A program made the position numbers and the translations under genes. A stretch of DNA of 64,000 nucleotides, taken from Gemmatimonadota bacterium. Its GTDB lineage: Bacteria; Gemmatimonadota; Gemmatimonadetes; Palauibacterales; Palauibacteraceae. Location: assembly GCA_022820995.1 (NCBI GenBank), contig JAJEEM010000059.1:1-64000 (forward strand). Reading direction: 5' to 3'. Below the pieces are notes generated by a model that was not told the origin of the DNA, made no database searches, and saw only the letters and a program-made list of their open reading frames with translations. How positions within the stretch are numbered: position 1 is the first letter of the stretch; every line of letters starts with the position of its first letter. Below, piece by piece: positions 9,791-20,904 of the stretch.

Positions 9791-10978
9791 ATGAGCGGGA
9801 TTCCCTCGTACGTATGGACGCTTCTGGCGCTGGCCGCGGGTCTGGCTGCGGGCGGGTTCTTCCCGGGGCCGCTCGCGCCGGTCGCCGACGCCACCGCCAC
9901 GCTCATCGCTTGGGTGGTCGCCGTCGTACCGCTGCTCATTCTGGCGGCCCTCAGCCCGGCCATCGCCACGCTGGTGCGGCGCGGGCTCGCCGGACGCTTC
10001 GCGGGCGCGGTCGTCCTCTGGTACGTCTTCACGTCCACCGTCGCCGGGCTCATCGCCGTCGTGACCTCCGCCACCATCTTCCGCATCCCGCTGGCCACGG
10101 GGGATCGGGGCGTGTGGACCGAGGCCGCGGCCATGCTGCGGAGCCTCGGAGAGGGCGGGGCTTCCCGGCCTCTGCTCGCAATTCTCGCCGGAGTCCTGCT
10201 GGGAGCCTTCGGCGCCCGGCACGATCCGACGTACCGCGTGCTCCGACGAATCGCCGACTCGATCGAGAGGGCGGGCGGCAAGCTGGCGTACGTCATGCTC
10301 CCGCTCATCCTCGCCTTCGGCATCACCCTGGGCGTGCGCTTCGGCGCGAGCCTGGGGCTCTCGCACTATCTGACGATGGCCGCCTACACCGGCGCGCTCG
10401 TCCTCGTCTGGTGGGCGTTCTACACGTTCGTGCTCGTGCGGAGGGTCGGACGCCGGTCCGTGGGCCCCGTGTTGAGCGGGTACTACGTGCCGACCGCGGT
10501 CTTCGCCGCCGGGACGTGTTCATCGCTCGCGACGCTTCCCGTCAACCTCGCGAACGCGAAGCGGGTCGGGGTCCGCGACGAGGTGGCCGACTTCGTGCTC
10601 CCGTTCGGCGCGGTCGCGAACCTGGACGCCAGCGCGCTGGCCTACGTGGCGTACGGGCCCTTCGTCGTGAGCCATGTCTTCGGCCTGGAACTCAGCTGGA
10701 TGATGATGCTCGCCGCCTGGCCGGCCGTCGTCCTGTTCACGATCGCCGCCCCGGGGCTTCCGGCCGGGATGGGGACGGCGCTGTGGAGCGCGACGCTGTT
10801 CGCGAGCATGCTGGGGCTCGAGGGACAGGCGCAGGGCGAGTTCATCGCGAGCTGGATCGCGCTCTCCGGCGGCATCCCCGACATGCTGCGCACGGCGACG
10901 AACACGACCGGAGACGGCTACACCGCGATCATCTTCGACGGCCGCTTCGACGAGTTCTTCGCGAGAGACCGTGGCTGA
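9791..10978 (+). CDS. dicarboxylate/amino acid:cation symporter (DAACS family)
   Basis: A 395-residue membrane protein related to glutamate/aspartate sodium symporters. It has about eight transmembrane helices; family features are the serine-rich re-entrant loop (AAGTCSSLATLPVNL), DFVLPFGAVANLDASA (normally NMDG-like) and ASMLGLEG. ATG 9791 is used; ribosome site weak. The end overlaps the next gene by 8 nt, so it is in an operon with two M29-like enzymes, suggesting import of the compound they process. Confidence 0.8.
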   Translation: MSGIPSYVWTLLALAAGLAAGGFFPGPLAPVADATATLIAWVVAVVPLLILAALSPAIATLVRRGLAGRFAGAVVLWYVFTSTVAGLIAVVTSATIFRIPLATGDRGVWTEAAAMLRSLGEGGASRPLLAILAGVLLGAFGARHDPTYRVLRRIADSIERAGGKLAYVMLPLILAFGITLGVRFGASLGLSHYLTMAAYTGALVLVWWAFYTFVLVRRVGRRSVGPVLSGYYVPTAVFAAGTCSSLATLPVNLANAKRVGVRDEVADFVLPFGAVANLDASALAYVAYGPFVVSHVFGLELSWMMMLAAWPAVVLFTIAAPGLPAGMGTALWSATLFASMLGLEGQAQGEFIASWIALSGGIPDMLRTATNTTGDGYTAIIFDGRFDEFFARDRG

Positions 10979-11993
10979 CGGGGCGGCGAGCGATTCGAGC
11001 GCGGCCGGGTCGCCGATGGCCGAGGCGGGCGTGGACCTGACCCCGGGAGCGCGGCGGCTCGTGCATGTAAACGGACGCGTCCGGCCGGGCGAGGTCGTCG
11101 TGATCGTGACGGACCCCACCATGGGACGCTACGCGGACGCCGTCGCCGGGGCCGCCCGCGAGGCCGAAGCCGCCGTGACCGTCTGCATAATTCCCATGCG
11201 TGACCAGGACGGGCAGGAACCGCCTCCACCCGTCGCACGCGCGATGGCCGAAGCCGCCGTGATCTTCTCTCCCGTGCGCATCTCGATCACGCACACGCGC
11301 GCCATGCGGACCGCCCTCGAGGCGGGGGCGCGCGTCTGCATGATGACGGCCTACACCGACGCGGTCATGACCAGCCCCGCCCTGCTCGAGACCGATTTCG
11401 CGGCGCAGGCCGACGTCTGCCGCCGCCTGGGCGCGGCATTCACCGAGGGCGGACACGTACGGCTCACGTCCCCGCGCGGCACGGATCTCCGCTTCGGGAT
11501 CGAGGGTCGCGTCGCCAACGTCCTGACGAACGTCCCGGAACCTGGAGAACTCGCCCCGGTGCCCGACATCGAGGTCAACGTCGTGCCGGTGACCGGTTCG
11601 GCCGAGGGCACGCTCATCTTCGACGCCTCCGTCCCCTACCTCGGGATCGGCATCCTGGAGGAACCCATCACCTGCACGGTGCGCGGCGGCGTCATCGTCG
11701 AGATGATCGGCGGGGCGCAGGCCGTCTTCCTCCGCGAACACCTCGAGTCCTTCGGGGACCCGAACTGTTTCAACGTCGCCGAGTTGGGCGTCGGCCTGAA
11801 CCCGAACGCCCGCCTCACCGGAGAGATGCTCGAGGACGAGGGCGTCATGGGTACGATCCACATCGGCATCGGCACCAGCCACACGCTCGGAGGGGAGATC
11901 GTGGCGCCGACGCACTACGACCTCCTCATGTGGGAGCCGACCATCGCCGTCGACGGCCGCGTCGTGCAGCGAGACAGGCAGGTGCTGGCGTGA
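10971..11993 (+). CDS. M29 aminopeptidase/NicX-like metalloenzyme (copy 1)
   Basis: A 340-residue member of the AmpS/M29 superfamily, which also contains 2,5-dihydroxypyridine dioxygenase NicX. Conserved blocks are the N-terminal RPGEVVVIVTDP fold, the GSAEGTLIFDASVPYLG strand, and near the C-terminus GLNPNARLTGEMLEDEG, HIGIG and THYD. The last two give the His...His-x-Asp metal set of NicX-type enzymes. GTG at 10971 overlaps the symporter stop. Peptidase and ring-cleaving dioxygenase functions cannot be separated by reading alone. Confidence 0.65.
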   Translation: MADGAASDSSAAGSPMAEAGVDLTPGARRLVHVNGRVRPGEVVVIVTDPTMGRYADAVAGAAREAEAAVTVCIIPMRDQDGQEPPPPVARAMAEAAVIFSPVRISITHTRAMRTALEAGARVCMMTAYTDAVMTSPALLETDFAAQADVCRRLGAAFTEGGHVRLTSPRGTDLRFGIEGRVANVLTNVPEPGELAPVPDIEVNVVPVTGSAEGTLIFDASVPYLGIGILEEPITCTVRGGVIVEMIGGAQAVFLREHLESFGDPNCFNVAELGVGLNPNARLTGEMLEDEGVMGTIHIGIGTSHTLGGEIVAPTHYDLLMWEPTIAVDGRVVQRDRQVLA

Positions 11994-12036
11994 AGGTGGA
12001 CAGGAAGCCGGGCATGGGGCCGGGTACGGGACGGCC

Positions 12037-12999
12037 ATGAGAGACGGAGCCAGGATCCTAGTGCGGACGTGCGCCGACGTTCAGCCGGGCGAGGACGTCG
12101 TCGTCGTCACGGACCCCGAGCGGATGGCCATCGCCCGGGCCGTTGCCGACGCCGCGCTCGAAGCCGGGGCCGTCGCGAGCGTCCTGATCCCGCCCGAGCG
12201 GTCGATCGACAACGAGGAACCGGGACCCGCCGTGGCCGCCGCTCTCCAGGCCGCCGACGTCGCCTTCCTCCCCGTGACACTGGCGCTGGCCCACACCCGC
12301 GCGGTCCGCGAGGCCATCGGCGCGGGAGCCCGGGTTCTCTCCATGACCGCGTTCACCGAACGGATGATGCGCGAAGGCGGGCTGTTCGCGGACTTCCGCG
12401 CGCGCAAGCCACTATGCGACGCCCTCTCGGCGAAGCTCACCGCCGGCGAACGGCTGCGGGTGACGAATCCCGCCGGCACGGACCTCACCATGAGCCTCGC
12501 GGGAGTGACCGGGAACAGCCACGCCTGCCTCCTGGACGGCCCCGGCTTCTCGGCCGTCCCCAACATCGAAGCCAACTGCGCCCCCGCACAGGGCGCCGCC
12601 GAAGGCGTGTTCGTCTGCGACGGGAGCATCCCCTACTACGGCGTGGGCCCGATCCGTGACGCCGTGACCTTCCGCATCTCGAAGGGCTTCGTCACCGACA
12701 TCGAGGGCGGCGACCAGGCCGATTTCCTCGCGGACCTGCTGGCCCGCCAGGATGACCCCTGGGTCTACAACCTCGCCCAGTTCGCCTTCGGCCTGAACCC
12801 CGCCTGCACCGAGTTCACCGGCGAAATGCTCAACGACGAAGGCGTGAACGGCACCGTCCACATCGGCATCGGCACCTCCGCCAACCTCGGCGGCACCGTA
12901 TCCGCCAAAACCCACTTCGACGCCATCAACCGCGCCCCCACCGTGTGGATCGACGACGAAGCGCTACTCCGTCACGGAGAGATCGTCGTCGACGGCTGA
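12037..12999 (+). CDS. M29 aminopeptidase/NicX-like metalloenzyme (copy 2)
   Basis: A 320-residue paralogue of the preceding gene with the same blocks: QPGEDVVVVTDP, GAAEGVFVCDGSIPYYG, GLNPACTEFTGEMLNDEG, HIGIG and THFD. It lies 43 nt downstream in the same orientation. The two copies have diverged well beyond a recent duplication, so they may form a heteromer or act on successive substrates. The AHTRAVREAIGAGARVLSMT region matches copy 1 closely. Confidence 0.65.
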   Translation: MRDGARILVRTCADVQPGEDVVVVTDPERMAIARAVADAALEAGAVASVLIPPERSIDNEEPGPAVAAALQAADVAFLPVTLALAHTRAVREAIGAGARVLSMTAFTERMMREGGLFADFRARKPLCDALSAKLTAGERLRVTNPAGTDLTMSLAGVTGNSHACLLDGPGFSAVPNIEANCAPAQGAAEGVFVCDGSIPYYGVGPIRDAVTFRISKGFVTDIEGGDQADFLADLLARQDDPWVYNLAQFAFGLNPACTEFTGEMLNDEGVNGTVHIGIGTSANLGGTVSAKTHFDAINRAPTVWIDDEALLRHGEIVVDG

Positions 13000-13953: not shown

Positions 13954-14132
13954 CAGCCCTCCTTCAGTCGGTCCCGCGGCAGGTTCGGCATCAATCTAAC
14001 GGCAGGAACGGCAACGATGCAGCGGCAGGTTTGGCTCCGGGGCTCAGCGAATTGAGCTTGCGGATTTCGGCCAATCGGTGTTCCTTCCCGCCCGACCTCG
14101 GAGAACGCCAGCGAACCCCCTATCACGAACCT

Positions 14133-15194
14133 ATGACCCGTCCATCTGCCAAGCGGTCAGACGCTCGATCCCTCGCCGGTCTCGCGCCGGATGAGGTGAA
14201 ATCCGTCGTCGAACGATACAGCGGCATCCACGACGGCGGCGTGGAGCGCAGGAAGGAACGTTATCGGTCGTTCGTCAATCACTACTACGACCTGGTGACG
14301 GATTTCTACGAGTTCGGCTGGGGGCAGTCCTTTCACTTTGCTCCCCGGCGACGGGGTGAGAGCTTCAAGGCGTCGCTGCTACGGCACCAGCGTTTTCTCG
14401 CCGATCGGCTGTCCCTTGAACCGGGGATGCAGGTGCTCGATGTGGGGTGCGGGGTAGGAGGACCGATGGGCGCCCTGGCCCGCTACACGGGAGCCAGCTT
14501 CGTCGGGCTCAACAACAACGCCTACCAGATCGAGCGCGCGAAGGCGCACACCCGGGATGTCCGGTCTCTGTGCCGCTTCATCCACGGCGACTACATGCAG
14601 ATCCCCCATGGCGATGACCACTACGACGCCGCCTTTGCCATCGAGTCCATGCCGCACGCACCGGACAAGACGGCGGCGTTCCGGGAGATCTTCCGGGTCC
14701 TGCGTCCGGGGGCCTGTTTCGCGGGCTACGACTGGTGTCTCACCGAGGATTTCGATCCGCGGGACACCGAACACGTGCGGATCAAGGACGACATCGTGGA
14801 GGGGGATGCGCTTCCGGATATCGCCCGTACGACGGAGATAGGCATCGCTCTGCGCGCGGCTGGATTCGAACTCGTCGAACACGGCGACCGCGCCCTCGCA
14901 TCGGACCCGACGACGCCCTGGTACCGTGCCCTGCAGGGCCGCGACCTCAACCTCAGGAGCATTCCGCGTACACCCGTCGGTCGCGCCCTGACGAATCTCG
15001 TGTTGAGAGTTGGTGAGAAGTGGAGGGCGTTCCCGGAGGGCACTACCGCCGTAAGCTCGTTGTTGAACAGGACGGCGGACGCCCTGGTCGAGGGCGGCAG
15101 GACCGGAATCTTCACACCGATGTTCTACTTCCTGGCCCGCAAACCCCCGCGCCAGGAGGAACGTCTTGACGGCGCCGGAGCTTCTGTAACCTGA
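14133..15194 (+). CDS. sterol C-24 methyltransferase homologue (SMT/ERG6 type)
   Basis: A 353-residue SAM-dependent methyltransferase that resembles plant and fungal sterol 24-C-methyltransferases over its full length. YYDLVTDFYEFGWGQSFHF (51-69) is the sterol-binding region I; LDVGCGVGGP (102-111) is the SAM motif; GLNNNAYQI, the HGDYMQIP segment, IESMPHAP and the C-terminal SMT domain ending FTPMFYFLARKP are all in the expected order. The family moves a methyl group from SAM to C-24 of a sterol side chain. Such genes are rare in bacteria but have been reported from uncultured ones. The start ATG 14133 matches the length of the family. No other early sterol gene (oxidase, cyclase) is in the window, so the substrate could be host or environmental sterol. 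Confidence 0.85.
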   Translation: MTRPSAKRSDARSLAGLAPDEVKSVVERYSGIHDGGVERRKERYRSFVNHYYDLVTDFYEFGWGQSFHFAPRRRGESFKASLLRHQRFLADRLSLEPGMQVLDVGCGVGGPMGALARYTGASFVGLNNNAYQIERAKAHTRDVRSLCRFIHGDYMQIPHGDDHYDAAFAIESMPHAPDKTAAFREIFRVLRPGACFAGYDWCLTEDFDPRDTEHVRIKDDIVEGDALPDIARTTEIGIALRAAGFELVEHGDRALASDPTTPWYRALQGRDLNLRSIPRTPVGRALTNLVLRVGEKWRAFPEGTTAVSSLLNRTADALVEGGRTGIFTPMFYFLARKPPRQEERLDGAGASVT

Positions 15195-15221
15195 CAAATC
15201 TTACATTGTATATTAGATTTG
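15195..15221. promoter_or_regulatory. AT-rich inverted repeat before the DUF4143 ATPase
   Basis: Arms CAAATCT (15195-15201) and AGATTTG (15215-15221) enclose TACATTGTATATT, which contains a possible -10 element. It stands out against the GC-rich background and lies directly before the ATG at 15223, so it probably contains the promoter and operator of the ATPase gene. Confidence 0.5.
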
Positions 15222-15222
15222 C

Positions 15223-16395
15223 ATGGTTATGATGCGAATGATCCGACGCGAGAGCAAGTTGCGGGTAGAGCGCCAACTGGCGCGGGCCCCGGCTGTTGTG
15301 CTTACCGGACCGCGGCAGGTGGGCAAGACGACCCTGGCCCTCGAGATCGCGCGTGAGCGCGGAGGCGCCTACCTCGACCTGGAGCGCCCCCCGGATCGGG
15401 CCAGGCTGTCGGATGTCGACGCGTACTGCCGCCGCAACGCCGAGCGCCTGGTCGTGTTCGACGAGATTCAGCGGGTCCCCGGTCTCTTCGAACCACTCCG
15501 GGGCGTCATCGACCGGCGCCGCCGGGACGGCCGTCGCACGGGCCACTTTCTCTTCCTCGGCTCGGCCTCCATCGACCTGCTCCGACAGTCCGGCGAGACG
15601 CTGGCGGGACGCGTGGCGTTCTGCGAAATGCCGCCCCTGAATGTGCGAGAGGTCGGCGCGGAACGTCTCGATGATCTCTGGTCGCGCGGCGGATTTCCGG
15701 AGAGTCTTCAGGCAGGCGACGACGCGGACAGCTTCGAGTGGCGGCTCGATTTCATCCGGACCTATCTCGAACGCGACATTCCGGCCCTGGGCCCGCGCAT
15801 CCCGAGCGAGACGTTGCGGCGTTTCTGGACGATGCTCGCCCACAACCAGGGTCAGAGCTTCAATGCCGCGGGTCTGGCAAAGTCGCTGGGCCTCAGCGGC
15901 GTAACCGTGGCCCGCTATCTCGACCTCCTGGTCGACCTGTTGCTGGTGCGGCGCCTCGTCTCATGGCGCGGGAACCTGGGGCGACGACTCGTGAAAGCGC
16001 CCAAGACGTACCTGCGGGACAGCGGCACATGTCACGCGCTTCTGGGAATCGAATCGCTGGATTCTCTCCTGGGACACCCCGTGGCCGGGAGCAGCTGGGA
16101 AGGGCTCGTGATCGAGAACATCGTGAGCGCCCTGCCGGCGCACGCCTCGATCGGCTATTACCGGACCGCGGGAGGGGCCGAGGTCGATCTCGCCATCGAG
16201 CTTGGCGGCGGCGAGACCTGGGCGGTGGCGATCAAGCGGAGCACCGCCCCCAGGGTTTCGCGCGGCTTCCACAGCGCCTGCGAGGACCTGCGGCCCGCCC
16301 GCAAACTCGTCATCTATCCGGGTCAGGAGACGTATTCGCTCGGTCGGGACATCGAGGCGGTATCCCTGAACGACATCTGCGATGACCTGACCTGA
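15223..16395 (+). CDS. AAA+ ATP-binding protein with DUF4143 domain
   Basis: A 390-residue protein of the AAA_14/DUF4143 family. Walker A is TGPRQVGKTTLALE (about 27-40), Walker B is LVVFDEIQRVP, and FLFLGSASIDLL is the sensor region. The C-terminal DUF4143 part has YLRDSGTCHALLGI, SWEGLVIENI and a nuclease-like YYRTAGGAEVDLAIE segment. The family is widespread, often strain-variable, and its role is not settled; defence or toxin-antitoxin-like functions have been proposed. AT-rich upstream DNA hints at acquisition as a unit. Confidence 0.8.
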   Translation: MVMMRMIRRESKLRVERQLARAPAVVLTGPRQVGKTTLALEIARERGGAYLDLERPPDRARLSDVDAYCRRNAERLVVFDEIQRVPGLFEPLRGVIDRRRRDGRRTGHFLFLGSASIDLLRQSGETLAGRVAFCEMPPLNVREVGAERLDDLWSRGGFPESLQAGDDADSFEWRLDFIRTYLERDIPALGPRIPSETLRRFWTMLAHNQGQSFNAAGLAKSLGLSGVTVARYLDLLVDLLLVRRLVSWRGNLGRRLVKAPKTYLRDSGTCHALLGIESLDSLLGHPVAGSSWEGLVIENIVSALPAHASIGYYRTAGGAEVDLAIELGGGETWAVAIKRSTAPRVSRGFHSACEDLRPARKLVIYPGQETYSLGRDIEAVSLNDICDDLT

Positions 16396-16405
16396 CCCCG
16401 GCCGT

Positions 16406-17521
16406 TCAGATTCGGCCGGTGCGGCGGAGGAGCCTCAGGTGGGTGCGGACGTTGTCGTGCTCGAAGTAGGCGTCCTGCAGGTGGCGCGCCCCGGACGAGA
16501 CCATCTCGGTGCGGCCGTGCAGGACCCGGTGGCCGGCGCACAGCAGGATCATCCCGCCCTCCAGCCGGAACTCGACCCGGGCGGCGGGGTCGTTGACGCG
16601 GCTCGACAGCTCGTGGTAGGCGGCGTAGAACTCGCCCAGGCGGGGTTCCGACAGGGGAACGGCCTGCATCTGCGCCGTGTTGAAGCGGATCATTCGGATC
16701 GCGCCGCCGCTGTCCACATCGACCATCGGGTTGGCCGCGTAGCACTCGTATTCGTCGCTGAAGATCCGGAACGGGACGGGCACCGAGCACAGCGCGTCGA
16801 ACTTGTCCGGGTGCTCGCTGCGCAGCGCCTCGAGCACGCCGAAGCCGTCCACGACGGTTGATGCGCCGCCTTCACACTCGTTCACCAGCATGTGCAGCGC
16901 CTGCACGCTCGGGGGCCACGTGTAGCTGGTGAAGTCGTTGTGCACGCCCACGGCCAGAGCCGTGTGCGCGATGTTGTATCCCTTCGGATCGAGCTTGACG
17001 TTGTGGATGCGCTCGAACAGCACCTCGCGGACCGGGCCCAGGCGGGGCGCAAGGTGCTCCAGCGAATCCGGTTCGGTGGGCGCGTCGACCAGGACGCAGA
17101 CCCCGGTGCGCAGAAACTCCTCGATCACGTCCGCCGCCGCGCTGTCGCTCGCCAGGAACCGCCCGTAGTCGAACCTCCGCGGCTGGAACTGCCCGTCCCA
17201 GTACTGCAACTCGAGACGGGGCCGGCTCAGGAGACTGCGGATGGCGCTTGACCGGTGTCGGGTGCGGTGACCGTCCGGCCAGGCGATGGAGATCGCCTCA
17301 TCCTCGGATCCGGCACCCTCGATGTCGACCGTCCGCGGCTTCAGATCGCTGGGGACGCGGAAGACGTGGAACCGCTTCTCCGTGGTCTGCTCGACGCAGC
17401 ACTCGCCGCAACCGCAGTTGTCGCGGAGCCAGAGGTAGGGGAGGTCCGTCCGTTCGCCATCGCTCCAGACCGCAGTCATGGCGTCGGCGTTCTGCGCGAG
17501 GCTGCTGATCGTGTGAGGCAT
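16406..17521 (-). CDS. TmpA/gamma-butyrobetaine hydroxylase-like Fe(II)/2-oxoglutarate oxygenase
   Basis: A 371-residue oxygenase with the two-domain layout of gamma-butyrobetaine dioxygenase. The N-terminal zinc site is C36, C38, C41 and H85; the C-terminal TauD-type domain has the iron triad H194-x-D196 and H335. TmpA, which hydroxylates 2-(trimethylammonio)ethylphosphonate at C1, was long misannotated as gamma-butyrobetaine hydroxylase. The divergent neighbour is a PhnZ/TmpB-like HD oxygenase, the expected partner, so TmpA is the better guess; carnitine synthesis from gamma-butyrobetaine is the alternative. ATG 17521 has GGAGGGG 7 nt upstream. Confidence 0.8.
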   Translation of the reverse strand: MPHTISSLAQNADAMTAVWSDGERTDLPYLWLRDNCGCGECCVEQTTEKRFHVFRVPSDLKPRTVDIEGAGSEDEAISIAWPDGHRTRHRSSAIRSLLSRPRLELQYWDGQFQPRRFDYGRFLASDSAAADVIEEFLRTGVCVLVDAPTEPDSLEHLAPRLGPVREVLFERIHNVKLDPKGYNIAHTALAVGVHNDFTSYTWPPSVQALHMLVNECEGGASTVVDGFGVLEALRSEHPDKFDALCSVPVPFRIFSDEYECYAANPMVDVDSGGAIRMIRFNTAQMQAVPLSEPRLGEFYAAYHELSSRVNDPAARVEFRLEGGMILLCAGHRVLHGRTEMVSSGARHLQDAYFEHDNVRTHLRLLRRTGRI

Positions 17522-17665
17522 CGTCGATCCCCTCCATCCGCTGTGACCTGCCCGCAGCATGCCGGACATCGCGCGCGCTTGACAAGGCCCTTCGCGCGCG
17601 CCGACGCTGCGGGGGGAGGAGTCCCGAGGATCCCTCGTTCCAGCCTCCGCAGGAGAGTGACAGGC

Positions 17666-18289
17666 ATGCCCCCAGAGGCGACGCCGAACCCAGTACCGAG
17701 CCCGACGACGAGCCCGGCACCCGGCGGTCCCGTCGTCAGCTTCACCCGCATGGCGGACGGCACTCGCGAGGACTACGAGTTGCTGGCGGGCCTCGAGGAG
17801 GAGTTCGACGCCGGCACCGCCGATCGGGTCCTTGAGCACCTCCGCGGGCTGTCCGGCTCGGTCGCCGGCTACCAGGTGGACCGGCTGGAACATTCGCTGC
17901 AGAGCGCGACGCGCGCGCACCGCGACGGCGCGGAAGAGGAGATGGTCGTCGCCGCGCTACTGCACGACATCGACGACCTCCTCGCCCCGCACAGCCACGG
18001 CGAACTGGCCGCCCTCCTGCTCCGGCCGTTCGTTACGGAGCGCACGCACTGGATCGTCCGGCACCACGGCCTCTTCCAGCGCGTTTACTACGCCCACCAC
18101 GTGGGCGGAGACCCCGACGCGCGCGACAGGTACCGCGACCACCCGTGGTATCAGGACGCCGTGGACTTCTGCCACCGCTGGGATCAGTGCGCATTCGATC
18201 CGGACTACGATTCGCTCCCGCTGGAGTTCTTCGAGCCGCTGGTCCGCCGCGTGTTCGCACGCGAACCCTTCAGCCTCTGGCCGCGGTAG
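17666..18289 (+). CDS. HD-domain mixed-valent diiron oxygenase, PhnZ/TmpB-like
   Basis: A 207-residue HD-domain protein. Candidate ligands are H76 (RLEHSLQ), H100-D101 (ALLHDID), H111, H133 or H134 and D173 (HRWDQ). The 24-residue gap from H76 to H100 equals that of PhnZ, and all six PhnZ/MIOX ligand positions can be filled. TmpB cuts the C-P bond of the TmpA product, giving glycine betaine and phosphate. A low-complexity Pro/Thr stretch precedes the domain. The gene is divergent from the TmpA-like gene; AGGAG precedes ATG 17666. Many relatives are annotated only as HD-domain proteins. Confidence 0.7.
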   Translation: MPPEATPNPVPSPTTSPAPGGPVVSFTRMADGTREDYELLAGLEEEFDAGTADRVLEHLRGLSGSVAGYQVDRLEHSLQSATRAHRDGAEEEMVVAALLHDIDDLLAPHSHGELAALLLRPFVTERTHWIVRHHGLFQRVYYAHHVGGDPDARDRYRDHPWYQDAVDFCHRWDQCAFDPDYDSLPLEFFEPLVRRVFAREPFSLWPR

Positions 18290-18364
18290 CAGCTTCTCTT
18301 CAGCCGATGGCATCCGCCGCGAGCAGGGTGGGTGTCATGAGATCCATCCGCGCCGCGGCGGTCC

Positions 18365-19471
18365 TCAATAGATGAACGGCAGCATCGCGAACCTGGCATG
18401 CTGCGTGTAGCGATCCCACAACTCTCCGTACTTCGCGCGGCAGCGGCGGTCATCGCGTCTCGCGCGATGCCCCAGCAGACCCGCAAGCCACATCGGCAGG
18501 AGGTAGGGCAGCCAGGAGGCGAACCCGGTCGTGAGTGTGAACGCCAGGTAAACGCAGATCTCGCCGGTGTAGTTCAGGTGCCTTCCGATCCCCCAGAAAC
18601 CGGAAACCAGCAGGCGCCCATCCAGCGTTCGTGCGGGTTTCCCCCAGATCCGCACGTCCGGGTCGCGCTTGAAGCGGTGCTTCTGCTGGTTCGCTCCGCG
18701 GAAGACCCAGAAGCCGAGGGTGAAGAGGAGGACGATCGCGGCGGCCGCGGGCGGAGGCAGCGGCTCCGCCGCATGGACGAGCCACCATCCGGGGAAGCAG
18801 TAGAAGAACGGGACCAGCACGTAGTCGCCCCAGACCAGCATCCATCCGAAGCGCTCGCTGACGAGATCCCACGTGTGGGTCATCCCGCCCTCGAACTGGA
18901 AGTAGTTGAGCACGTACACGAAGGTGAAGATCTGGTACAGCGTCATCGCCAGCGTCAGGCGGCCGTAGGTCTCGTACTGCACGACCGCGAACGATGCGTT
19001 GAACAGCGCCAGGCCGATGAGGGAGGGGCGGTAGCTGAAGAACTTCAGGTCCACGCCGAGCGCCGCGGGATTGAGTTCCGACCCGAAGAAGTAGTTCCGC
19101 AGGAATCCGGGCGACGCGTCCGGGTTCCGGGTTCCCCGGAGATACAGCCAGCCGGCCGCGACAAAGGCGAAGACGTTCGCTGTCACGAACAGCGCCGCAA
19201 AGTGGGTATGCAGCACCGAGAGCGAGAACCAGCCGAAGACCTGGGCGAGGCATGCGACGGTCATCACGATCAGGAACGCGGCGAGCCCGTTCAGCTTGTA
19301 GGTGCGTGATTCCCCCGCCAGGCCGGGCCCCGTGACCCGGCGTCCGGGCAGCACGATCGACCCCAGAAAGAGGAGGGCGACGAACAGCAGCAACATTCCC
19401 GTTGCTTCGAGCACCGCACGGCCGGAGAGCCCGGCCCACAGCGCCGCCAGCGACAAATTCGGCTCAGCCAC
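18365..19471 (-). CDS. ERG4/ERG24-family sterol reductase
   Basis: A 368-residue polytopic membrane protein with about eight to nine hydrophobic segments. The C-terminus carries the family signatures: LLVSGFWGIGRHLNYTGEI (second ERG4/ERG24 pattern) and RRDDRRCRAKYGELWDRY, ending FAMLPFIY. The internal LNPAALGVDLKFFSYRPSLI corresponds to the LNPRxGxxDLKxFxxxRPGL block. The family reduces sterol double bonds at C-14, C-7 or C-24(28) with NADPH. Which one cannot be told from sequence; ERG4 activity would act directly on the product of a sterol C-24 methyltransferase such as the one at 14.1 kb. The start is GTG 19471. Confidence 0.85.
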   Translation of the reverse strand: MAEPNLSLAALWAGLSGRAVLEATGMLLLFVALLFLGSIVLPGRRVTGPGLAGESRTYKLNGLAAFLIVMTVACLAQVFGWFSLSVLHTHFAALFVTANVFAFVAAGWLYLRGTRNPDASPGFLRNYFFGSELNPAALGVDLKFFSYRPSLIGLALFNASFAVVQYETYGRLTLAMTLYQIFTFVYVLNYFQFEGGMTHTWDLVSERFGWMLVWGDYVLVPFFYCFPGWWLVHAAEPLPPPAAAAIVLLFTLGFWVFRGANQQKHRFKRDPDVRIWGKPARTLDGRLLVSGFWGIGRHLNYTGEICVYLAFTLTTGFASWLPYLLPMWLAGLLGHRARRDDRRCRAKYGELWDRYTQHARFAMLPFIY

Positions 19472-19717
19472 TCGCAGCGCCGTTCTGCGCCGCGCGCTCC
19501 AGGTGCTCCCGCCACTTTCGCACCGTCACCTGCCACTCCGCGCCAAATGAACTCTTTTGACGGATTTCGTCGGCGACGGTATCGGCCATGTGCGCTTGGT
19601 GCAACCACCTTTTCCTGGGGGCATCGGCCCTGGCTCGGCGATCGGCCGGCATTCGGATGCGGCCGCAGGTCGATGAAGGTTTGCCAGCCGATGGCGCCGG
19701 TCGTCACTTTTTGTTGG

Positions 19718-20146
19718 ATGATCGCAAGGCGTGAGGCGGCGGAACCGACACTGCTCTCGGGCGGCAATCCCCAGATTCCCAAGGGTGACGGGGACAGGCC
19801 CGTGCAGGCCTACATTGCGGCCATGCCGGGCTGGAAGCGCGCCGTCGGCCGGGGCCTCGACGCATGCGTCGAGCGGGGCGCACCCGATGCCCGGAAGGCT
19901 GTCAGATGGAACTCGCCCTTCTACGGCATCGAGGGCAGGGGCTGGTTCCTCTCCTTCCACTGTTTCGCGAAGTACGTCAAGGTCACGTTCCTCAACGGGG
20001 CCGCGCTGCGACCCGTTCCGCCGGTGGCGTCAAAGCACGAGCACGTGCGCTACTTTCACATCCACGAGCATGACGAACTCGAAGAAGACCTCCTCGTACG
20101 CTGGATCGAGCAGGCAGCGACGCTGCCGGGGGAGGACCTCTTTTGA
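19718..20146 (+). CDS. DUF1801 domain-containing protein
   Basis: A 142-residue protein matching the DUF1801 (YdhG-like) pattern: TLLSGGNPQIPKGDGDRPVQ, YIAAMPGWKR, RKAVRWNSPFYGIEGRGW and FHCFAKYVKVTF. The fold is small alpha/beta and cytoplasmic; its biochemical function is unknown. ATG 19718 fits the usual start a few residues before TLLSGG; an ATG at 19691 is possible. Its TGA overlaps the TTG start of the flavin-reductase-like gene. Confidence 0.75.
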   Translation: MIARREAAEPTLLSGGNPQIPKGDGDRPVQAYIAAMPGWKRAVGRGLDACVERGAPDARKAVRWNSPFYGIEGRGWFLSFHCFAKYVKVTFLNGAALRPVPPVASKHEHVRYFHIHEHDELEEDLLVRWIEQAATLPGEDLF

Positions 20147-20904
20147 TACGGATGACAGCAATGACCGACTGGTCTCGGAGACGGTTCCTGGAGAGGGGGT
20201 CGGCGGTCGCGGCGGTCGCCGCCGTCTGGGGCTGCGCGCCGGAGGAGGGGACGCGGATGGGCGGAGGTAGGCCGGTCGCGGGCGAGAGCCCGCCCAACCC
20301 GCCGACACCGCTCACAGGTCCTCGCCGCTCGCTGGCGGAGCCCGGCCCGATGCTTCCGCCCGTCCCGGCGATCCTGCTCACGGTGAACGGCCGACCCGGC
20401 GACCCCGACGAGATCTCCGTGCTATGGACGTTCGTCGTGAGCGGCGACCCGCCTCAGATCGGGGTGAGCGCGGCTTTCGAGCACCAGGCGAGGGAACTCC
20501 TCGAGATCCACGACGAGTTCGTCCTCAACGTCCTGCTCGCGTCGATGGTCGAGGCGTTCGACACCGTCGACATGAACTCCGGACGCGTCGCCGACAAGTT
20601 CGAACTCTCGGGTCTCACGCGGGGCGCGGCGAGCGTCGTCGACGCGCCCACTGTGGAGGAGTCTCCCATCCACTGCGAGTGCCGGATCATCGACTCGATC
20701 GAGATGCCGCCCGAGCGGAAGCTCTTCTTCGCGGAGGTCGTGGCGACGACCGTCCTCGAGGGCGCGGTCGACGACGCCGGTCGCCTGATCGTGCCCGCCG
20801 TGGACTTCTTCGGGATGACCGCCTGGAGCGGCGAGCACTACACGATGGGCCGCCGGGTCGGCAACATCGGCATGACCGTCGGCCGAACCGACATCAAGTA
20901 CTGA
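20143..20904 (+). CDS. exported flavin reductase-like FMN-binding protein
   Basis: About 253 residues. An RRRFLERGSAVAAVAAVWGC leader indicates Tat export and possibly a lipoprotein. The rest is a split-barrel flavin reductase domain with FVVSGDPPQIGVSAA, EFVLNVL, KFELSG and HCECRIIDS, the order seen in FMN-binding flavin reductases. TTG 20143 is preferred: GGAGG lies 7 nt upstream and the codon overlaps the preceding stop; ATG 20152 or 20161 are alternatives. Redox partner unknown. Confidence 0.75.
   Translation: MIRMTAMTDWSRRRFLERGSAVAAVAAVWGCAPEEGTRMGGGRPVAGESPPNPPTPLTGPRRSLAEPGPMLPPVPAILLTVNGRPGDPDEISVLWTFVVSGDPPQIGVSAAFEHQARELLEIHDEFVLNVLLASMVEAFDTVDMNSGRVADKFELSGLTRGAASVVDAPTVEESPIHCECRIIDSIEMPPERKLFFAEVVATTVLEGAVDDAGRLIVPAVDFFGMTAWSGEHYTMGRRVGNIGMTVGRTDIKY

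Follow-up and report, generated by a model that had tools for sequence, protein, structure and literature searches.

An intact sterol C-24 methyltransferase gene and an ERG4/ERG24-family reductase gene at the remains of a bacterial sterol cluster in Gemmatimonadota

Bacterial sterol C-24 methyltransferases (SMTs), their occurrence in sponge symbionts, the sterol gene cluster and the horizontal spread of this cluster have all been published. Here we compare the described systems with two genes, the SMT gene SMT1 and the ERG4/ERG24-family reductase gene RED1, which lie in a 64,000-nucleotide stretch of Gemmatimonadota DNA (GenBank assembly GCA_022820995.1, contig JAJEEM010000059.1, positions 1 to 64,000), hereafter the window. 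Clusters of steroid genes (CSGs) were reported by Kelly et al. (2022) from symbionts of Ircinia sponges, in 115 of 537 metagenome-assembled genomes (MAGs) from 10 phyla including Gemmatimonadota, together with horizontal transfer and purifying selection (PMC9531527). Sterol genes were frequently scattered or in doublets in that study, and the CSG reductase gene was annotated as a Delta14-sterol reductase. The msb locus, described in 2020 from a gammaproteobacterial symbiont of Melophlus, contains genes for an NAD(P)-oxidoreductase, a Rieske oxygenase, a CYP51-like demethylase, a squalene epoxidase (SE)-cyclase fusion and an SMT, as well as a gene acting on unsaturation that is taken here as the reductase (PMC7074536). 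Bacterial SMTs from sponge symbionts, some of them located in sterol clusters, are active in vitro (Brown et al. 2023, PMC10070321). Three SMTs from symbiotic bacteria make 24-isopropyl side chains, and the MAG encoding one of these three, from Chlamydiae, holds no other sterol genes, suggesting the use of host sterols; no word beginning with Gemmatimonad occurs in the excerpted main text of that article. Finally, sponge-associated Chlamydiae carry sterol reductases, called typically eukaryotic and possibly horizontally acquired, which are like RED1 by description only, and differ in belonging to another phylum and in having no cluster remnant described in the excerpts of PMC9666466.

The CSG has a core of ERG24, CYP51 and LSS with a flanking SMT, and the nearest named relatives of SMT1 bear jk18x bin names, a form printed in that work on Caribbean Ircinia (PMC9531527). 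The window differs from the CSG in that the genes for the cyclase, for CYP51 and for C-4 demethylation have been lost and that resident genes separate its SMT from its reductase. The side-by-side arrangement of cyclase, CYP51 and ERG24 is absent from the window, where we found only SMT1, RED1 and a relic of SdmA, the gene for a Rieske C-4 demethylase. Whereas msb is a multi-gene locus from another phylum, the window holds a remnant: it is derived from a cluster of the CSG/msb type and is not a working member of it. A first-pass annotation, made from the sequence before this analysis, had not recognised the two genes as what is left of an already described cluster that spreads horizontally. Bacterial SMTs themselves are not a novelty (PMC10070321, PMC9531527). 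In the open-licence literature searched, as excerpted, we found no description of a stripped cluster that keeps an SMT and a reductase, or of an SMT beside a KshA-like Rieske oxygenase.

SMT1, RED1 and the cluster they derive from

In what follows, G000 is the window genome and G001 to G016 are 16 relatives from the same genus, giving a set of 17 genus genomes. Both genes are intact and, as first annotated, lie about 3.2 kb apart on opposite strands (Table 1); the list of open reading frames also contains a longer alternative frame for SMT1 with an upstream TTG start.

Table 1 Features of the window and of related contigs (window coordinates unless a locus, genome or contig is named)
Feature	Position	Strand	Description	Basis
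Insert with SMT1 and AAA/DUF4143 gene	13966..16412		Between aldo-keto reductase and TauD genes	No SMT at this site in L120, L122, L123 (blastn, tblastn)
SMT1	14133..15194	+	Sterol C-24 methyltransferase; ATG at 14133, stop at 15194; 353 aa, intact	PF08498, motifs, clade
AAA_14/DUF4143 ATPase	15223..16395	+	Not beside SMT1 in G013	PF13635 3e-42, PF13173 7.2e-26
TauD/GBBH-type dioxygenase (TmpA-like)	16406..17521	-	Resident	PF02668 1.9e-35; NF049936 below cut-off
HD-domain gene (TmpB/PhnZ-like)	17669..18289	+	Resident	Weak NCBIfam matches below cut-off
RED1	18365..19471	-	ERG4/ERG24-family sterol reductase, probably Delta14 (ERG24-like); 368 aa, intact	PF01222, 4QUV
SdmA 3'-end relic	19467..19550	-	Rieske C-4 demethylase; overlaps RED1 start	SdmA profile match
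RED2-less junction	20143..20151		RED2 missing in the window	RED2 present here in L122, L123, L120
SMT2-Rieske pair	L113:8886-11165 (G010)	tail-to-tail	Same pair in G002-G007 and G009	From contig pieces by position in G001, G008
Rieske gene without SMT2	G000 C26:14512-15546		KshA-like oxygenase	

SMT1 is a genuine member of the sterol C-24 methyltransferase family, as the first-pass annotation had held against a generic methyltransferase fold. It matched the Pfam domain Sterol_MT_C (PF08498) with an E-value of 5.4e-20 (71.7 bits versus a cut-off of 21.7), preceded by a class I methyltransferase domain (Methyltransf_11, PF08241, 1.5e-18). Its identity is 48% with Arabidopsis SMT1 and 39% with the yeast enzyme ERG6, both provisional reference sequences, compared with 33–34% over a shorter region for two other methyltransferases, MitM and RebM. 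In a 19-row tree that left out tocopherol and hopanoid methylases and used the same two provisional eukaryotic rows, MitM and RebM fell outside the 17 SMT rows, SMT1 included, at 100/100, with a bootstrap that had not fully settled. Three of the four regions that we take to characterize SMTs (YExGWGxSFHF, LDxGCGxGGP, xATCHAP and FTPM...ARKP) read as expected in SMT1, and the third reads ESMPHAP, compared to EATCHAP in the two eukaryotic rows. All motifs quoted in the first-pass annotation are present, but its broader statement that every eukaryotic region is found does not extend to this one, which it had not quoted.

The altered region is common in the clade to which SMT1 belongs. SMT1 falls in a five-row Gemmatimonadota clade (99/95) nested in a 48-row clade (100/100) composed mostly of SMTs from sponge MAGs, again with an unsettled bootstrap. 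ESMPHAP occurs in 36 of these 48 rows, including the window. At the position of the Cys of EATCHAP, 47 rows have Pro and one has Val; none of the alignment's 35 other rows has Pro at this position. For these analyses, rows alike over their final 250 residues were collapsed (from 91 to 82 for SMTs and from 64 to 60 for reductases), the window duplicates L002 and L009 were left out of the trees, and one protein (L100_SMT1_4564) was kept in the SMT tree and dropped from the motif alignment as a non-SMT (27% identity).

RED1 is an intact member of the ERG4/ERG24 sterol reductase superfamily. It matched PF01222 above the cut-off over profile positions 72–432 of 432 (2.5e-72, 244 bits), and its best solved match was the Delta14-sterol reductase MaSR1 (PDB 4QUV, 1.6e-70, about 40% identity). 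Both ERG4/ERG24 signatures had been ascribed to it; judged against what we take to be the PROSITE patterns, RED1 has the C-terminal signature in all essentials and a degenerate form of the first, GSELNPA compared to an NPR ending in the reference rows. Both genes keep nearly all of the residues that are invariant in their families: SMT1 breaks none of the otherwise-invariant columns across 48 SMT rows, and RED1 changes one of 113 across 40 reductase rows. SMT1 is 90% identical to its copy in the relative G013 and is under purifying selection (dN = 0.050, dS = 0.243, omega = 0.206), with omega values of 0.12 and 0.06 for the resident TauD and HD genes in the same pair of genomes. To judge from these sequence features, both genes look functional.

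Taken by itself, the sequence of RED1 leaves its regiochemistry open. Its scores were 239 bits to MaSR1, 186 to human DHCR7, 151 to yeast ERG24 and 104 to yeast ERG4, the weakest, the last three references being provisional sequences. RED1 reads WGD where ERG4 reads FWN, and the motif alignment did not find in RED1 the NACxKGEE stretch common to ERG4 and a Rokubacterial protein (L095). In the reductase tree, for which the programme warned of long branches and of an odd letter composition of the provisional yeast and human rows, the cluster-type reductases including RED1 formed a clade of their own, so that an attempt at a firm Delta14 assignment from the tree failed. Approximately unbiased (AU) tests rejected the union of this clade with ERG4 of yeast by itself (p-AU = 0.008), with MaSR1 and related proteins (0.011), although MaSR1 is the best solved match, and with ERG24 plus 9L5R (0.025), and did not reject its union with DHCR7 (0.064) or with ERG4 plus the ERG4-like Rokubacterial protein L095_6648 (0.074). 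We rejected an ERG4 assignment given the weakest score, the missing ERG4 motifs and the AU rejection with ERG4 alone, although one of the two ERG4 groupings was not rejected.

The CYP51 reaction generates a Delta14 bond. Orthologues of RED1 adjoin CYP51 in the full clusters, and no CYP51 orthologue was found in G000. A Delta14 activity is favoured because CYP51 makes this bond, because the cluster has a single such reductase and because the CSG reductase is annotated as a Delta14-sterol reductase (PMC9531527). Based mostly on cluster context, and on the best match instead of the tree, RED1 is likely to be a Delta14 reductase; a C-24(28) activity is very improbable. A Rokubacterial sterol cluster contains two ERG4/24-family reductases (L095:6648-7691 and L095:5521-6552), one of them cluster-type. 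The protein at L095_6648 joins yeast ERG4 in trees (with the long-branch warning), has the ERG4-like NACxKGEE motif and scores best to MaSR1, making it, by sequence, a better candidate than RED1 for a bacterial C-24(28) reductase.

To place the pair among its relatives, we scanned one genome per species and obtained 74 distinct loci with relatives of SMT1, nearly all from MAGs and from many phyla, with SMTs 45–90% identical to SMT1. In 31 loci, the SMT was accompanied within the fetched stretch by all six other cluster genes at ≥50% identity, namely those for the cyclase and squalene epoxidase (fused into one frame in L083), for CYP51 and the reductase, for a Rieske protein of SdmA type and for a dehydrogenase of SdmB type. 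The SMTs and reductases of these full clusters are 66–79% and 67–79% identical to those of the window, respectively. The commonest order is SMT on the plus strand followed by cyclase-epoxidase, CYP51, reductase, SdmA and SdmB on the minus strand. The full cluster is the CSG of the literature, and it agrees with the msb locus. Overall, a reductase at ≥50% identity was found in 37 loci and none of the six genes in 28, some of which are cut by contig ends. For the 43 loci lacking some of the six genes, 20 genomes (completeness unstated) were searched in full and the other 23 were left out. Cluster-type cyclase pieces were found in 12 of the 20, one of them (G018) just a fragment cut by a contig end, and none in the other eight, two of which had a 29–31% match only; a window-type reductase was present in eight and a distant one (34%) in four. 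The G018 fragment (73 aa) resembled a fossil gene but is not taken as one, because its contig ends there. Tandem SMT genes were also seen in or beside sterol clusters, with three in L053:1162-4336 (one cluster-type and two divergent) and two in L074:2-3218.

The arrangement of the window locus ties both genes to this cluster. When 1296 stop-to-stop fragments covering the window were compared with a profile built from 32 cluster SdmA proteins, only the SdmA relic matched with an E-value below 0.5 (E = 4.7e-4, profile positions 346–371 of 373). By its coordinates, its stop overlaps the start of RED1, with the two frames offset as they are in the full cluster L083. Because the relic lies at the predicted place, strand and frame, it is strong evidence that RED1 came as part of the cluster. 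A possible CYP51 relic near 18312-18419 arises at least partly from a CYP51 frame overlapping the end of RED1 and is not claimed.

Comparison with the genus relatives showed what was there without the cluster genes. The neighbourhood in L120, L122 and L123 comprises a racemase, two M29 peptidases, an aldo-keto reductase, TauD, HD, DUF1801, RED2 (a second reductase) and a flavin reductase, with neither SMT1 nor RED1. The aldo-keto reductase and TauD genes are separated by <60 bases in L122 and L123 and by about 1.5 kb of other sequence in L120; the distance between HD and DUF1801, which flank RED1 in the window, is about 1.5 kb in L122 and L123 and about 20 bases in L120. Neither an SMT nor a reductase of cluster type was found in these spacers. 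The TauD and HD genes are conserved in these three relatives, which have no SMT at the site, and are outside the sterol set. G013 carries SMT1 at the same site, adjoining TauD and without the AAA gene, which is probably an unrelated insertion. Homology between the window and G013 does not reach RED1, stopping at 18360, about five bases from its stop, and about 100 bases past this point G013 has a truncated cyclase whose recognisable part has no N-terminal stretch, no epoxidase half and one frame change; RED1 was not found at the G013 locus. GC content at third codon positions was 0.785 for SMT1, 0.878 for RED1 and 0.89–0.92 for five resident genes. Upstream of SMT1 in G013 (L108:6893-7961), a fused TauD/aldo-keto reductase fragment lies beside a full second TauD gene, a possible scar of cluster insertion or a tandem duplication.

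Missing pathway genes and readings of the pair

The first-pass annotation found no cyclase or squalene epoxidase in the window, and a genome-wide search extended this result. In G000, there was no match to SQHop_cyclase_C or SQHop_cyclase_N (PF13243, PF13249), no squalene epoxidase was found and neither was an orthologue of CYP51 (best match 28% over half the query) or SdmA (best match a 28% partial one, to the KshA-like Rieske gene). SdmB was not found in the window, the only region searched for it. G000 has two SQS_PSY genes, which could work for carotenoids or for squalene. Within the genus, an SMT was found in 13 of 17 genomes (a count that includes a weak G011 match of 23.4 bits, over the cut-off) and a strong cyclase match in one, so that 12 of the 13 SMT-bearing genomes have no strong cyclase match. 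PF13243 was matched at E = 0.001 in ten genomes, strongly only in G013 (173 and 126 bits), which also has a weak match; the weak partial matches (about 26–36 bits), found in nine of the 17 genomes, were not counted as cyclases. The squalene epoxidase match in G015 (22.5 bits) is likewise weak and over the cut-off, and two SMT matches in G008 are apparently one gene split across two contigs.

The window very probably comes from a sponge symbiont of the phylum Gemmatimonadota, a close relative of which is an Ircinia sponge symbiont. On balance, the most plausible reading is that SMT1 and RED1 are the intact survivors of a sterol cluster that was acquired horizontally and then stripped, and that they are retained for tailoring sterols without making them. 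A cluster of the msb/CSG type would have inserted around the resident TauD-HD pair in the ancestor of the window species and G013, after which cyclase, epoxidase, CYP51, SdmA and SdmB would have been lost from the locus. SMT1 would transfer a methyl group from S-adenosylmethionine to C-24 of Delta24 sterols (desmosterol-like), and RED1 would use NADPH to reduce a ring double bond, most likely Delta14. No sterol ring-formation gene was found in G000, and the substrates would therefore be acquired, as sterols or intermediates from the sponge or from sterol-making co-symbionts. The earlier suggestion that host or dietary sterols are modified is supported as a serious option, given that searches of G000 for a cyclase, an epoxidase and orthologues of CYP51 and SdmA gave none. 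What the data show are the families of both genes, their intactness, their derivation from the cluster, the loss of its other genes here and the purifying selection on SMT1; the reactions, the bond reduced by RED1, the origin of the sterols and the genuine lack of the missing genes in the organism are inferred.

Several points weigh against sterol tailoring by a stripped cluster. Delta14 sterols form no obvious host pool, and the clade of cluster-type reductases lies in none of the ERG24, DHCR7, MaSR1 and ERG4 groups. Purifying selection was computed for SMT1 only, as RED1 has no close relative for a dN/dS estimate. L122 and L123 carry about 1.5 kb of uncharacterised sequence at the RED1 site, and the history of this gap is not fully settled. 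The main caveat is one of assembly: G000 is 94.7% complete in 78 contigs (3.72 Mb), and a second cluster copy could be lost in assembly or binning because the clusters of its kin fall on tiny contigs: C13 of G013 (3.7 kb, with an unbroken cyclase-epoxidase piece cut by the contig end), C91, C130 and C239 of G017 (4.3, 3.6 and 6.6 kb) and C8 of G022 (5.5 kb).

These last observations bear on the possibility that the organism makes sterols de novo, with a full cluster elsewhere that was lost as a MAG gap and with the window pair as spare copies or dispersed members of the pathway. G013 has both the truncated cyclase at the locus and the unbroken piece on its 3.7-kb contig, the cluster is spread over small pieces in G017, a Gemmatimonadota MAG that is not among the 17 genus genomes, sterol genes are often scattered in symbiont chromosomes (PMC9531527), and the two SQS_PSY genes fit this picture as well. 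Nonetheless, this explanation is unlikely, since four pathway genes were sought in a nearly complete genome and not found, the RED1-bearing copy of the cluster is broken, and, as a rule, SMT-bearing genomes of the genus have no strong cyclase match. It is harder still to credit that both genes are passing leftovers without a current role, due to decay as SdmA has done. The rest of the cluster is gone or a relic, RED1 was not found at the G013 locus and the evidence of selection is limited to SMT1, but the frames are intact, the invariant residues are kept, SMT1 has an omega of 0.21 versus G013 and most genus genomes carry an SMT. Least probable of all is the scheme of the first-pass annotation, in which SMT activity is followed by ERG4-type C-24(28) reduction to give saturated C-24-alkylated side chains: RED1 does belong to the ERG4 superfamily, SMT products include 24-methylenecholesterol (PMC10070321) and a clade with ERG4 and the Rokubacterial protein was not rejected (p-AU = 0.07), but the ERG4 score, the motifs, the rejected ERG4-alone clade and the CYP51 adjoining its orthologues, which calls for a Delta14 reductase, all speak against it.

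Two further observations concern cyclase-like sequences in the genus and its phylum. Cyclase pieces on small contigs of two Gemmatimonadota MAGs, G013 C13 (L121) and G017 C239 (L169), are 95% identical, which may be due to recent transfer, shared descent or cross-binning. In G013 (C68:40659-41673) and G014 (C3:53573-54648), a weak SQHop_cyclase_C-like match lies at most about 140 bases from another Rieske-like gene on the same strand.

SMT2, the KshA-like oxygenase and RED2 in the genus

Most relatives of the window genome carry a different SMT. SMT2, 43–46% identical to SMT1, was found in at least nine of the 16 genus relatives, or ten when G001 is counted by position. It has the Sterol_MT_C domain and reads MVYGWGESLHF in place of YEFGWGQSFHF. 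The gene lies tail-to-tail with that of a KshA-type Rieske oxygenase (PF19298, 1.6e-21), the best solved matches of which are 3-ketosteroid 9-alpha-hydroxylases. The KshA-like oxygenase occurs in 14 of the 17 genus genomes, including G000 (81%) and G013 (82%), and its distribution follows that of the SMTs: it is present in 13 of 13 genomes with an SMT match and in one of four without. A match to the ERG4/24 family was found in 11 genus genomes, all 11 of which have an SMT; none of these counts is corrected for descent. SMT2 and the Rieske oxygenase possibly form a sterol-tailoring pair without a cyclase. In two Nitrospira-type MAGs (L036 and L042), an SMT2-type SMT and a Rieske gene lie about 250 bases apart on one strand.

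The window species and G013 depart from this pattern. At the SMT2 locus, both lack a stretch of about 3.1 kb that holds SMT2 (G014 lacks little more than the gene itself), SMT2 was not found genome-wide in either, and the cluster-type SMT is the sole SMT match in each. These results suggest a probable swap of SMT2 for SMT1 in the lineage of G000 and G013, the direction of which is unproven. RED2, about 30% identical to RED1, lies between the DUF1801 and flavin reductase genes in the three relatives that carry it at the junction missing it in the window. Tentatively, the genus as a whole may tailor sterols without making them, by SMT, KshA-like Rieske oxygenase and ERG4/24-family reductase (no cyclase was found in most members), with SMT2 and RED2 displaced in the window lineage by SMT1 and RED1, the sole genes kept from an acquired cluster. 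Two distantly related SMTs and one shared Rieske oxygenase within the same genus make this swap testable.

Steranes alkylated at C-24 serve for dating eukaryotes and sponges. The window locus adds evidence that an alkylating gene can outlive its pathway, since SMT and reductase are intact although synthesis genes next to them have been lost; across the genus, most SMTs are found where no cyclase was. If the genus does tailor sterols in this manner, side-chain alkylation in sponges would be a community trait, carried out in part by bacteria unable to make sterols, and neither a cyclase nor the host would mark the maker of a given sterane precursor. Searches for cyclases would then undercount the bacterial contributors to alkylated sterols, and sponge sterols may be modified by third parties.

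Resident genes of the window

Outside the sterol genes, the back-to-back TauD/GBBH-type and HD genes (16406-18289) resemble TmpA and TmpB of 2-trimethylaminoethylphosphonate breakdown, below NCBIfam cut-offs, and are conserved in the genus relatives examined. Further upstream (10971-12999), two tandem genes on the same strand encode M29-like aminopeptidases, the first of them below the Pfam cut-off, and their order is conserved in three genus relatives.

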